A stretch of 14,708 bases of DNA, taken from the NCBI GenBank assembly GCA_949123685.1, contig CASBHZ010000075.1, forward strand, positions 1 through 14,708. The letters are read 5' to 3'. The stretch is from an uncultured Bacteroidales bacterium. Its GTDB lineage: Bacteria; Bacteroidota; Bacteroidia; Bacteroidales; Muribaculaceae. The notes under the pieces are model-generated. The model saw only the letters and a list, made by a program, of their open reading frames with translations, did no database searches and was not told where the DNA came from. Position numbers and translations under genes: made by a program. This document shows positions 1 to 14,708 of the stretch, piece after piece. How positions within the stretch are numbered: position 1 is the stretch's first letter; every line of letters starts with the position of its first letter.

Positions 1-1401
1 CTGTTCAGTCTCGGCAAATAGAGCCGTGGTAGTCTCGCTGATCTTGATGTCATTGTCGCTTATGAAATCGGTATTGCCGCTGTATCTGTCTGTGCGGTGA
101 ATATTGGTGATTTCCGTGCCGAATCTGATGTCGCCTTTCAATGCCGGTAAGGATGCCGTAATGTTGCCGGCAAGTAGTCTGTTCTCAACATTATTTACCG
201 TAGAAAAATCTCGTTCCTGATTTATCGTTGAAATCTCAGTCTCTGCGGTATGCCTGTCGTCTATCTGCCACATTGCGTCAAAATTGACCGACAAGTGCCA
301 TTTCCCAATTTCGCCGGTATAATATGCACTGAGAAGATGTTGCCGATTATGGCGGGATATATCTGAAAGATTCTCAAGAGTCTCGGAAAATTCATTATTG
401 ACATAGCGGTCAGTCAATGAATTGTCTTCGGATGTGGAGGGTCTGAAAGAGAAGTCATAATAAAAACCGAAGCTATGCAACGAGACGTTGTAGCTTAGAC
501 CTATTTTTCCTTGATAGACCGGGTATTTTGACATATCTCTTCCGGAGCTGCTCTGTTGCACGACACCGGATTTGAGATATTGCAGTGTGGTATTGGAAAA
601 CCTCGGTCGTTCACGGTAATTCTCGTAATTCAACATTCCGAAAAGGTCAAAACCCTTCTTGCGCCAGTTGAAATTGAGCTGCTCGAAAAGATAGGTATAA
701 TGCTTATAGCCTACTGTTGTGTGGTCGTTGAAAGAAAAGCCTTCTCCGACAGGTGCGACAGTGGCTATTCTTATCACAGAATTGACGGTGGAAGCATAAC
801 GAGCTCCCGGATTGGTTATCACATCAACGCTTTTAATCTGCGTGGAGGCGAGCTGTTCAAGTTCCGACATATCCCTTATCTGTCTGCCGTTTATATAAAT
901 AGAGGGTGTTCCTTTTCCAAGCACTTCAATACCGGAACCTATTTTTGTAACGAAAGGCATCTTGCCAAGCACTTCAAGGGCGGTTCCTGTGTTGGCGAGA
1001 TATGTGCCGGATACAGGAATCTGTACTCCTTCCCCTTTTAGTTTTGCCATAGGGCGTGAACCTTTGACTATAACCTCGCCAAGCATGTACGAAGCAGGGG
1101 CAAGGACAATATCACCTAAGTTGGCATCCGGGTTGTCTATAATCCTGTCCTCAAAGCCTATTGCCGAGACTTTTAGGAACACGGAATTACCGTCTCCTCT
1201 AACTGAAAACTTTCCTTCGGCATCAGTTACAGTCCCGTCAATCAATGTTGAATCATTTTGGTTCTGAAGTGTCACATTAACAAACTCCAGAGGATTGCCG
1301 GATACATCCTTTATGATGCCTTCGTAGGTCTTAACCTCGGCAAAAAGGGTGTTGAATGTTAGGCAGAGCAACAGCCCCGCCATTAATTTTCTTAATGACA
1401 T
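1..1401 (-). CDS. Outer membrane beta-barrel protein with carboxypeptidase-regulatory N-domain (partial, C-terminus beyond window)
   Basis: Open frame of 467 codons read from an ATG at 1399-1401 to the window edge with no stop, so the C-terminal part is missing. Residues 1-21 form a signal peptide (MSLRKLMAG, then a Leu-rich core, ending FNTLFA). Residues about 25-100 look like a carboxypeptidase-regulatory (CarboxypepD_reg-like) beta-sandwich, with GNPLEFVNVTL and VTDAEGKFSV. Residues about 115-215 resemble a TonB-receptor plug, with YINGRQIRDMSELEQL and SVDVITNPGARY. The rest alternates aromatic and polar residues like barrel strands. This order is typical of the Bacteroidetes outer membrane beta-barrel family (OMP_b-brl_3 type, usually about 800 residues). 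It lies 26 bp after the putative anti-sigma gene and is probably the last visible gene of that operon. The ligand is unknown; import or surface signalling is inferred from family. An alternative start at Met7 is possible, but Met1 gives the better signal peptide. Confidence 0.85.
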   Translation of the reverse strand, partial: MSLRKLMAGLLLCLTFNTLFAEVKTYEGIIKDVSGNPLEFVNVTLQNQNDSTLIDGTVTDAEGKFSVRGDGNSVFLKVSAIGFEDRIIDNPDANLGDIVLAPASYMLGEVIVKGSRPMAKLKGEGVQIPVSGTYLANTGTALEVLGKMPFVTKIGSGIEVLGKGTPSIYINGRQIRDMSELEQLASTQIKSVDVITNPGARYASTVNSVIRIATVAPVGEGFSFNDHTTVGYKHYTYLFEQLNFNWRKKGFDLFGMLNYENYRERPRFSNTTLQYLKSGVVQQSSSGRDMSKYPVYQGKIGLSYNVSLHSFGFYYDFSFRPSTSEDNSLTDRYVNNEFSETLENLSDISRHNRQHLLSAYYTGEIGKWHLSVNFDAMWQIDDRHTAETEISTINQERDFSTVNNVENRLLAGNITASLPALKGDIRFGTEITNIHRTDRYSGNTDFISDNDIKISETTTALFAETEQ

Positions 1402-2583: not shown

Positions 2584-3084
2584 CTATGTTTTTTTATGGT
2601 TAATGAACAGTTTTCTTAATTTATTCATCCCTGATTTATATCTTGATTTGGCAGTGGACTGAGGAATGGAAAGGATACTGCTGATTTCGACAAATGACAG
2701 ACCGTCAACCACATTCATTCGTATGATGTCGGCTTCGCGTGATGGGAGACTGTCAAGACAGGCGTTTACTCTGTCAGCATCCTCCAGATCAAGTATCTCA
2801 TTGGGTGTTTCCTCTATATCGTAATCTTCTATGTGCAAGATGTCCCGTTTGCCAGACCGGGCATAATCTTGGCACAGATTATGGACAATCCTGAAAAGAT
2901 AGAGTCTCACGCTTTCCGGCTTAATGTTGTCTGTATACCTCTCCAGAAATTTCAGAACGGCTTCGTATACAAGATCCTCAGCCTCAACATGGTTGCCAAG
3001 CCTATAATACGCAAAACGTACAAGATAGTCGAGATTATCCTCGATTATCTTGCTGATGGTTTTGTGCCGAGTATTCTTTAACAT
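2584..3084 (-). CDS. ECF-type RNA polymerase sigma factor
   Basis: 166 residues, a normal length for a sigma-70 family ECF factor. Region 2 spans about residues 14-80: an aromatic-rich stretch FAYYRLGNHVEAEDLVYEAV, followed by YLFRIVHNLCQDYAR, the core-binding and -10 recognition helices. Region 4 spans about residues 108-160: LPSREADIIRMNVVDGLSFVEI, then a helix-turn-helix SILSIPQSTAKSRYKSGM that would read the -35 element. There is no region 3, as usual in ECF factors. The ATG at 3082-3084 gives the standard N-terminus. It is translationally close to the downstream membrane protein (one base between genes), which supports a sigma/anti-sigma pair. It probably directs expression of its own operon including the outer membrane protein, but I could not find a convincing ECF promoter pair upstream. 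An IS element sits about 250 bp upstream of the start codon. Confidence 0.92.
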   Translation of the reverse strand: MLKNTRHKTISKIIEDNLDYLVRFAYYRLGNHVEAEDLVYEAVLKFLERYTDNIKPESVRLYLFRIVHNLCQDYARSGKRDILHIEDYDIEETPNEILDLEDADRVNACLDSLPSREADIIRMNVVDGLSFVEISSILSIPQSTAKSRYKSGMNKLRKLFINHKKT

Positions 3085-3327: not shown

Positions 3328-3336
3328 GTCTAATAG
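3328..3336. repeat. Target site duplication, left copy
   Basis: GTCTAATAG directly abuts the left inverted repeat of the IS4-family element. The identical nine bases follow the right inverted repeat at 4603-4611. A 9-bp duplication is within the range known for IS4-family elements. Confidence 0.93.
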
Positions 3337-3359
3337 CATAGCACATGACATTTTTAGGT
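3337..3359 (+). repeat. Left terminal inverted repeat of the IS (IRL)
   Basis: Begins CATAGCACATGACATTTTTA and continues GGT. The first 20 bases are identical to the reverse complement of the right end, position 21 differs (G versus A), and positions 22-23 match again. Confidence 0.93.
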
Positions 3360-3421
3360 ATTCGTCTCAAGGCACACAAAAACAAGTACATACGCCAATT
3401 GGGAGTCAATTTCAAGTTAAA

Positions 3422-4585
3422 ATGTCTTGCATCGCTTGCCTTTACCAACTGTCAATAAAACATAAGGATATAGGAAAGGCGCGGACTTCCTTTGTTAATA
3501 GGGTGAACAAAAATCAAGGAAATCGCACGCCTTATGGATACTCTATTAACAATTCTGAGACCGGTTTGTCAGAGAGGAATGAACCTTTCTCTAAAAAATG
3601 TCTCATATCGGTTCTTCAGGCCATGATAGTGTCGTGGTCGGTCAACATTCTCAAACTCGCTTCCGAGTTTGCCTCAAGTGCCGACGTCGCATCGGTGGTA
3701 AGGCGTATCGAGCGTTTCTTGCTTCGAGGACTGGTAAAGCAGCATGAAGCTGCCCGGAGCATAATTGACGCCCTGCCTGAAAATAGTCGGTTCATACTGA
3801 CCATGGACGGCACATCATGGCAGCTTGGCAAATTCAAATACTATGTCCTTGCAGTGGGAATCTGCTTCAACGGAATATCGCTCCCCATATGCTTCACATT
3901 CCTCCCTGGCCACGACATTACCAGCTTTGTAGAGGAGATTGACATTATGGAAAGAGTTGTATCCCTGATTGGCCATGGCAGGATAGAGTGTCTTCTCGCA
4001 GACCGTGAGTTCGGCAATTCGAATTTCATCAAATGGCTTCAGATAAACCACATACGCTATTGCCTGAGACTGCGGGAGAATCTGTTTATGAGAAAAGAAG
4101 GCCAGAAAAAGGGGCGGAAGCTCCGCGAAGTGCTCTCATCGCTGAAACTCGGTGAATCCGTCGTATTGCATGACGTCTGGCTGATGCGCAGGAACACGAG
4201 GGTACGGATCTATGCCACACGCCGCACGGGCAGAAACGGGGAGGAGTCGCTTATAATCCTCGCTTCTCCATTGGAGTGCGACTATACGGAGGCGCTCTAT
4301 CGCAAGCGTTGGACTCTCGAGACCGCATTCCGGGCGCTGAAGTCCGCCGGATTCAACATGGAGGAGACCCATCTCGGAGTAAAGCGTTTTGAAAACATGC
4401 TTACTCTTTTGATGATTGCCTTTGCTGCTGTATTCATCGACGGCCTTGTCAAAATCGAGTCTTTGCCGATTCCGATGATGAAAAGCAGGAATGTACAGCG
4501 CATCAGTATTTTTCGATATGGATATGTCAACCTGCTGCACGATTTCTGGACAAATGTTAAAAACGAGGCGGCTAAACCGACTTAA
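3422..4585 (+). CDS. IS4-family DDE transposase
   Basis: 387 residues that cut and join the ends of the surrounding IS. The RNase H-like catalytic core is visible: first Asp at D129 in FILTMDGTSWQ, second Asp at D194 in IECLLADREFG, and the C-terminal IS4 signature Y-x2-R-x3-E-x6-K at Y293, R296, E300 and K307 in LYRKRWTLETAFRALK. Between D194 and E300 there is a beta-rich stretch of about 100 residues, as in the IS4 family. The N-terminal part has a helical DNA-binding look. The frame is open further upstream to the IS end but has no ATG there, so 3422 is the first ATG; GTG/TTG starts cannot be excluded. The TAA stop (4583-4585) lies within the right inverted repeat. No frameshift or internal stop is seen, so the enzyme should be functional. 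Confidence 0.93.
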   Translation: MSCIACLYQLSIKHKDIGKARTSFVNRVNKNQGNRTPYGYSINNSETGLSERNEPFSKKCLISVLQAMIVSWSVNILKLASEFASSADVASVVRRIERFLLRGLVKQHEAARSIIDALPENSRFILTMDGTSWQLGKFKYYVLAVGICFNGISLPICFTFLPGHDITSFVEEIDIMERVVSLIGHGRIECLLADREFGNSNFIKWLQINHIRYCLRLRENLFMRKEGQKKGRKLREVLSSLKLGESVVLHDVWLMRRNTRVRIYATRRTGRNGEESLIILASPLECDYTEALYRKRWTLETAFRALKSAGFNMEETHLGVKRFENMLTLLMIAFAAVFIDGLVKIESLPIPMMKSRNVQRISIFRYGYVNLLHDFWTNVKNEAAKPT

Positions 4586-4602
4586 AAATGTCATGTGCTA
4601 TG
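4580..4602 (-). repeat. Right terminal inverted repeat of the IS (IRR)
   Basis: Reverse complement of the left end with one mismatch in 23. It contains the last codon and stop of the transposase gene. Confidence 0.93.
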
Positions 4603-4611
4603 GTCTAATAG
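4603..4611. repeat. Target site duplication, right copy
   Basis: GTCTAATAG, identical to 3328-3336. Its last two bases also form the start of a 16-bp inverted repeat (4610-4625). Confidence 0.93.
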
Positions 4612-13810: not shown

Positions 13811-14662
13811 ATGAGTAACGATGAATTGATAAGAACCGTCACCGAACGGGCTCAAAACTGGTTGACCCCTCAATACGATGAAGATATCCGTGAAGAGGTT
13901 AAAAAAATGCTTGATGCTGAAGATAAGACTGAACTTATAGAGTCGTTTTACAAGGATCTTGAATTTGGCACAGGCGGTCTCCGCGGCATCATGGGTGCCG
14001 GTACGAACCGCATGAACCGTTACACGGTTGGCGCAGCCACCCAAGGTCTTGCCAATTATCTAAAAGACTGCTTCAAGGATCTTCCTCAGATTGCTGTTGC
14101 CGTAGGTCATGACGTGCGTCATAATTCACGCAAGTTTGCCGAGCTTACGGCTGATATTTTCTCAGCCAACGGTATTAAGGTTTATCTTTTCGACGGACCG
14201 TGCCCCACGCCTGAAGTTTCTTATGCTATCCGTAAACTCGGATGTCAGAGCGGTGTTATGGTGACTGCGAGTCACAATCCTAAAGAATACAACGGCTACA
14301 AGGCTTATTGGAGCGATGGTGCCCAGATGATTGCGCCTCACGATGTCAAGACTATCGAATATGTGAATGCCATAACATCTGTAGATCAGATTAAATTTGC
14401 TCCCAACAAAGATCTTATCCAGGTTATAGGAAAAGATATAGACGAGCAATACCTTGCGGATATTCATTCTCTTTCTCTCGATCCGGAAGCTAACAAGCGT
14501 CATAGCGACATGAAGATCGTTTACACCCCGATTCATGGCACCGGTACGCGCCTGATGTTTGATTCCCTTAAGTTATGGGGATTCAACAATGTGATCCACG
14601 TTCCGGAGCAGGATATTCAGAGTGGTGATTTCCCCACAGTTGCTTCTCCGAATCCTGAAAAT
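13811..14662 (+). CDS. Phospho-sugar mutase (phosphoglucomutase/phosphomannomutase family), partial
   Basis: 284 genuine codons from the ATG at 13811; the rest of the gene (the family is about 580 residues) is missing. The N-terminal domain has FGTGGLRGIMGAGTNRMNRY and VGHDVRHNSRKFAELTADIF. The active-site serine loop is GVMVTASHNPKEYNGYKAYW, where the serine carries the phosphate that is swapped between positions of the sugar. Domain 2 begins near YTPIHGTGTRLMFDSLK and breaks off after FPTVASPNPEN. It converts glucose-1-phosphate and glucose-6-phosphate or a similar pair in the cytoplasm; a pentose role as in PGM2 proteins cannot be excluded. Beyond 14662 the open frame continues only into adapter sequence (RSEEHTSELQSR), which must not be annotated as protein. 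Confidence 0.92.
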
Positions 14663-14708
14663 AGATCGGAAGAGCACACGTCTGAACTCCAGTCACGCGA
14701 TAGTATCT
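14663..14708. other. Illumina sequencing adapter and index, assembly artefact
   Basis: Bases 14663-14696 match the 34-base TruSeq read adapter, which begins AGATCGGAAGAGC and ends CCAGTCAC. They are followed by eight bases GCGATAGT (14697-14704), which fit an index, and ATCT, the first bases of the next adapter part. Its in-frame translation is the well-known contaminant string RSEEHTSELQSR. This is not genomic DNA. Confidence 0.98.

Follow-up and report, generated by a model that had tools for sequence, protein, structure and literature searches.

Does the phospho-sugar mutase gene that runs into the right edge of this contig end there as the organism encodes it, or are its last bases foreign to the genome? 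The window, which is the whole stretch of 14,708 nucleotides that was analysed, closes with 46 bases (14663-14708) that the preliminary description had read as sequencing adapter. The features at this edge are as follows.

13811..14662, plus strand: phospho-sugar mutase gene, 5' portion of 284 codons cut off by the contig end, recognized from its Pfam domains and from 83% DNA identity to a relative
14663..14696, plus strand: TruSeq-type i7-side adapter, 34 bases, exact match
14697..14704, plus strand: sample index slot, GCGATAGT, eight bases, sitting between the adapter and ATCT
14705..14708, plus strand: ATCT, the first four bases of the P7-side adapter segment ATCTCGTATGCC...

The plus-strand letters at 14663-14708 are AGATCGGAAGAGCACACGTCTGAACTCCAGTCAC, followed by GCGATAGT and ATCT, and they continue to the right edge of the window, which is presumably the edge of the contig. 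Local alignment matches 34 of 34 adapter bases at 14663-14696 with zero mismatches (score 34 of 34), where the expected chance number of exact 34-mers in the window is approximately 1e-16 (both strands, equal base frequencies). We take the name and sequence of the TruSeq i7-side adapter to identify these bases, the first A of which can presumably be the A-tail base from library preparation. The adapter lies on the plus strand, points outward and stops 12 bases short of the right edge; only four bases of the following segment, ATCT, remain before the edge. Thus, all three parts that had been proposed for this edge (adapter, 8-base index and beginning of the following segment) are present, in the right order and facing outward.

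The contig was also screened with five adapter pieces (including the i5 side, Nextera, and the P7 and P5 tails) on both strands, with the best place recorded for each piece and strand. This screen, which the preliminary description had suggested, finds the exact adapter at the right edge; the i5 piece likewise aligns there, by way of a shared 13-base core. No adapter is seen at the left end among the best places per piece and strand, and scores away from the right-edge adapter range from 9 to 13. The 13-base core occurs once in the window (both strands, up to two mismatches), as an exact copy within the right-edge adapter; the core alone is little proof at this tolerance, because shuffled sequences average 0.46 matches.

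The length of the index slot can be read directly: ATCT is found at offset 8 after the adapter and is absent at offsets 6 and 7, so that eight bases is the only index length that fits (chance 1/256). Among the listed viral-contig copies of the adapter with at least 12 bases beyond it (n = 82), ATCT is at offset 6 in 52, at offset 8 in 20 and at neither in 10; a further 39 copies are too short for the offset to be placed. The continuation ATCTCGTATGCCGTCTTCTGCTTG is present after the index in other contaminated contigs. The sequence GCGATAGT directly after the adapter has no match in the viral contig collection (viral_contigs), and we know of no kit index list that includes it. A phage MS2 record (L201, LC710218.1, 3556-3601) carries the adapter, then the index AGCGATAG, then ATCTCG. 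The slot might accordingly be a misread copy of the AGCGATAG index, not a true GCGATAGT, as the two have seven bases in common, shifted by one; this is unlikely, since such a misreading would require both a one-base deletion and a one-base insertion, with the slot staying at exactly eight bases.

Upstream of the adapter lies a genuine phospho-sugar mutase gene from a Muribaculaceae-like bacterium. The gene product covers positions 3-134 of the 138 in the PGM_PMM_I profile (6.1e-42, 143 bits versus a Pfam cut-off of 22.5), and its match to PGM_PMM_II (33.8 bits versus a cut-off of 29.3) breaks off at profile position 69 of 103; a search of NCBIfam profiles returned no model at its cut-off. The reading frame 13811-14707 is open off the end of the contig, without a stop. 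Residues 1-284 of this frame resemble the Bacteroidales phospho-sugar mutase, the gene for which in the relative L203 specifies 583 amino acids; compared with that protein, the copy in the window is incomplete, being cut at residue 284, about half length, and ends in an adapter translation. Because the adapter is read here in the frame RSEEHTSELQS, which has no stop codon, the mutase frame continues past the end of the contig, having added 15 false residues, RSEEHTSELQSRDSI, and one dangling base. The false C-terminus previously attributed to the mutase is thus confirmed as an in-frame adapter tail, although its length is 15 residues and not the 12 that were quoted.

Comparison with relatives places the end of the genuine gene at 14662, as was expected from the earlier suggestion that similarity to homologues stops at PNPEN; the break is evident both in the ends of DNA matches and in protein identity across the junction. 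In a DNA search of 397 genomes from the family of the best locus, 369 of which gave matches, the best relative (G192/L203) is 83% identical over query bases 1-852, ending at window position 14662, with 53 of 60 bases in agreement before the junction and 12 of 46 after it, which is chance level. The 15 best DNA matches end at query bases 851 to 854 in 14 cases and at 862 in one, and none of the DNA matches listed extends past base 862 of the 898-base query.

At the protein level, a scan of the genome_contigs collection found at least 587 stretches encoding a relative of the mutase, of which 80 were kept as loci. The closest locus among the matches listed has 84% protein identity, and the titles of the best 15 name Muribaculaceae, Muribaculum or Paramuribaculum in eight cases and Bacteroidales, Bacteroides, Porphyromonadaceae or no group in the others. 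Across 78 of the 80 loci (L030 and L053 were dropped, their SPNPE-type motif not being in register), identity to the window is 67.9% over the 36 residues before the junction and 2.5% over the 15 residues after it, compared with 69.6% before and 56.5% after when the same 78 relatives are aligned to L001. The DPDADR motif of the relatives, which we take to be the metal-binding loop of the mutase, lies approximately 20 residues past the junction.

The preliminary description had also proposed that its reading would fall if an independently sequenced relative carried the same bases at this site. None does among the matches listed: AGATCG follows the junction in none of the 29 loci checked (of 80), and the adapter with up to two mismatches is found in 0 of the 15 genomes behind loci L001-L015. 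In the list of protein homologues (the best 120 of 7,489, admitted at 0.55 to 1.75 times the length of the query), the closest are P0001 and P0002, 94% and 91% identical over 95% of the query, and both read PEAMAM after SPNPEN, not the adapter peptide. RSEEH follows SPNPEN in 0 of the 68 homologues with SPNPEN among the 120 listed, and neither the window's own protein nor an identical one is among these best 120. Entry of this contig's protein into protein clusters, which the preliminary description had expected, is not seen in that list; adapter tails do occur there on other homologues of the gene.

These comparisons bear on whether the organism itself encodes a mutase with a novel C-terminus, by natural truncation or gene fusion. 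The frame is open throughout the 46 bases, as such a protein would require, but an open frame is no evidence for a natural fusion, because two of the three adapter frames stay open. The 34-base identity to a synthetic oligonucleotide (approximately 1e-16 by chance), the index slot with ATCT next and then the end of the sequence, the breaking of the PGM_PMM_II model at 69 of 103, and the relatives' DPDADR some 20 residues past the junction all speak against it. We therefore reject natural truncation or fusion, on adapter identity and the homology break, as so improbable as to be negligible; no evidence for a natural origin of the 46 bases was found.

We conclude with near certainty that 14663-14708 is synthetic library DNA, most likely arising from read-through of a short insert, left untrimmed and assembled as the tip of the contig. 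A short genomic fragment with its end near 14662 would have been covered by a read that exceeded it in length; this read would have gone on through the i7-side adapter and the index to the first bases of the P7 segment; and, left untrimmed, it would have been built by the assembler into the closing stretch of the contig. The adapter with its order and direction, and the break in homology, are observed directly; the orientation and the published pattern (see below) point to read-through, failed trimming and extension of the tip. A different origin of the adapter, in a chimera formed by adapter ligation or in some other library molecule that became attached to the fragment, is very improbable. 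A chimera and a read-through look alike from the contig alone, and a viral contig (L093) in which 1257 bases separate the adapter from the end of its stretch suggests that internal joins may occur, but the outward orientation at the edge and the native order of adapter, index and next segment are the pattern of simple read-through.

The same adapter is also present at contig ends in related genomes. The exact 34-mer is present in 6 of the 397 genomes of the same family, in 8 copies total, and the 34-mer pattern read backwards is present in none of these 397. In all 8 copies the stretch ends 5-16 bases past the adapter; these bases comprise an index and, if there are enough of them, the beginning of ATCTCG, although one copy (L225) reads ATCGCG in place of ATCTCG. 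Contig coordinates show a contig start for 3 of the 8, and in the rest the contig was assumed to end where the stretch does.

Viral contigs contain the adapter in at least 120 stretches, with 121 copies listed. Measured to the ends of the fetched stretches, which were taken as given, 36 of these 121 copies lie within 10 bases of an end, 92 within 50 and 120 within 250. The contig L093 carries adapter, index and P7 segment, with the adapter at 3889-3922, which may be the trace of a chimeric join within that contig.

The last 54 bases of the window were also compared with phage, plasmid and Escherichia coli records. Among 50,697 phage records, 19 match over 28 to 46 bases; for 14 of the 19 the best place is no more than 250 bases from a record end, and two that were examined, including MS2, are titled as complete genomes. 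None of 72,556 plasmid records matched. Of the complete E. coli genomes (5,426), two matched, both inside the chromosome: NZ_AP040990.1 at 4842162-4842206 (93.6% over 46 query bases) and NZ_AP046542.1 at 2224712-2224746 (100% over 35 bases), with no annotated feature under either match.

An adapter artefact at the end of a contig is ordinary, and has already been described for microbial genome databases: Moeller et al. (2024, BMC Genomics 25:1033, PMC11536531) report their contamination by sequencing adapters. According to the text of that paper, 1,110 of 15,657 assemblies among the MGnify reference genomes were adapter-enriched (p < 0.01), against an expectation of about 157; adapters clustered at the ends of contigs, and reverse-complemented adapters at their starts; and some contigs could be merged once trimmed. 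The paper gives AGATCGGAAGAG and CACACGTCTGAACTCCAGTCA as the universal and forward-specific Illumina adapters. The cases that it sets out resemble the window in having Illumina AGATCGGAAGAG and then the i7-specific part at an outward contig end; contigs are thought to have broken at adapter sites, and both metagenome-assembled and isolate genomes are affected. From that account, the window shows no difference in kind. The main text of PMC11536531 does not contain the terms protein, open reading frame, gene prediction, index or read-through, and therefore does not treat the false protein tail under those words.

False protein tails can be recognized among the homologues of the mutase, 11 of which (of the 120 listed, best of 7,489) end in adapter translations. 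Frame translation derives IGRAHV followed by a stop from the i7-side adapter, DRKSVV followed by a stop from the i5-side adapter, and LSLIHI from the first frame of the Nextera piece. IGRAHV ends three of the 120 listed homologues (P0001, P0017, P0082) and DRKSVV four (P0007, P0019, P0042, P0060); LSLIHI ends P0043 and P0076; P0059 ends in LSLIHISEPTRP, with LSLIHI seven residues before its end; and the C-terminus of P0068 is RSEEHTSELQSQR. Four six-residue ends recur among the 120, namely IGRAHV (3), DRKSVV (4), LSLIHI (2) and DADRIG (2), and three of these four are adapter translations, the fourth, DADRIG, being a real motif of the family. In the other homologues listed, IGRAHV and DRKSVV are internal to none and LSLIHI to one (P0059), compared with 67 for DADRIG.

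The two TruSeq adapters can also supply a stop codon of their own, which is met in two of their six forward frames, and 7 of the 120 listed homologues end exactly where such an in-frame stop would fall. Because the adapter brings its own stop, a gene caller could see a finished gene. A weaker test is given by four-residue adapter words, which occur near the ends of 8 of the 120 homologues, where 200 shuffles of the adapters average 1.31 and reach 14 at most; such words are common inside proteins too (46 versus a shuffle mean of 27). Because of this weakness, the claim of false ends rests on the exact ends. The list of 120 is biased towards cut proteins, because its length limits of 0.55-1.75 leave out full-length mutases.

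Adapter remnants at contig ends are probably a systematic class of false protein C-termini. If the rate of 11 in 120 were general for proteins at contig edges, such ends would be very numerous in protein databases, and some adapter-ended proteins may be labelled complete by gene callers. Screens for such ends can use the peptide in addition to the DNA. The adapter tail is a matter of quality control, not of biology: 14663-14708 should be masked, the gene handled as partial, and the 15 residues excluded from alignments and protein families. A search of openly licensed literature gave no match for RSEEHTSELQS, RSEEHTSEL, DRKSTRLN, SSHVKISYAVFC, IGRAHV or YAVFCLKK, and a search of the same kind for DRKSVV and five further adapter peptides matched SFPTRRSSD only. 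The paper with that match, PMC7949039, reportedly concerns two-hybrid mapping.

Elsewhere in the window, a protein with a carboxypeptidase-regulatory-like domain (1-1401, minus strand) is cut by the left edge. On the same strand, a sigma-70-type factor (2584-3084) adjoins the gene for a 384-amino-acid protein (1428-2582) that has no Pfam match and, by eye, one membrane-spanning stretch. A complete-looking insertion sequence occupies 3328-4611, with a DDE transposase (PF01609) at 3422-4585 and 23-base terminal inverted repeats (3337-3359 and 4580-4602) that are 96% complementary. It is flanked by a 9-base direct repeat, GTCTAATAG, at 3328-3336 and 4603-4611, which looks like the target-site duplication of the element.
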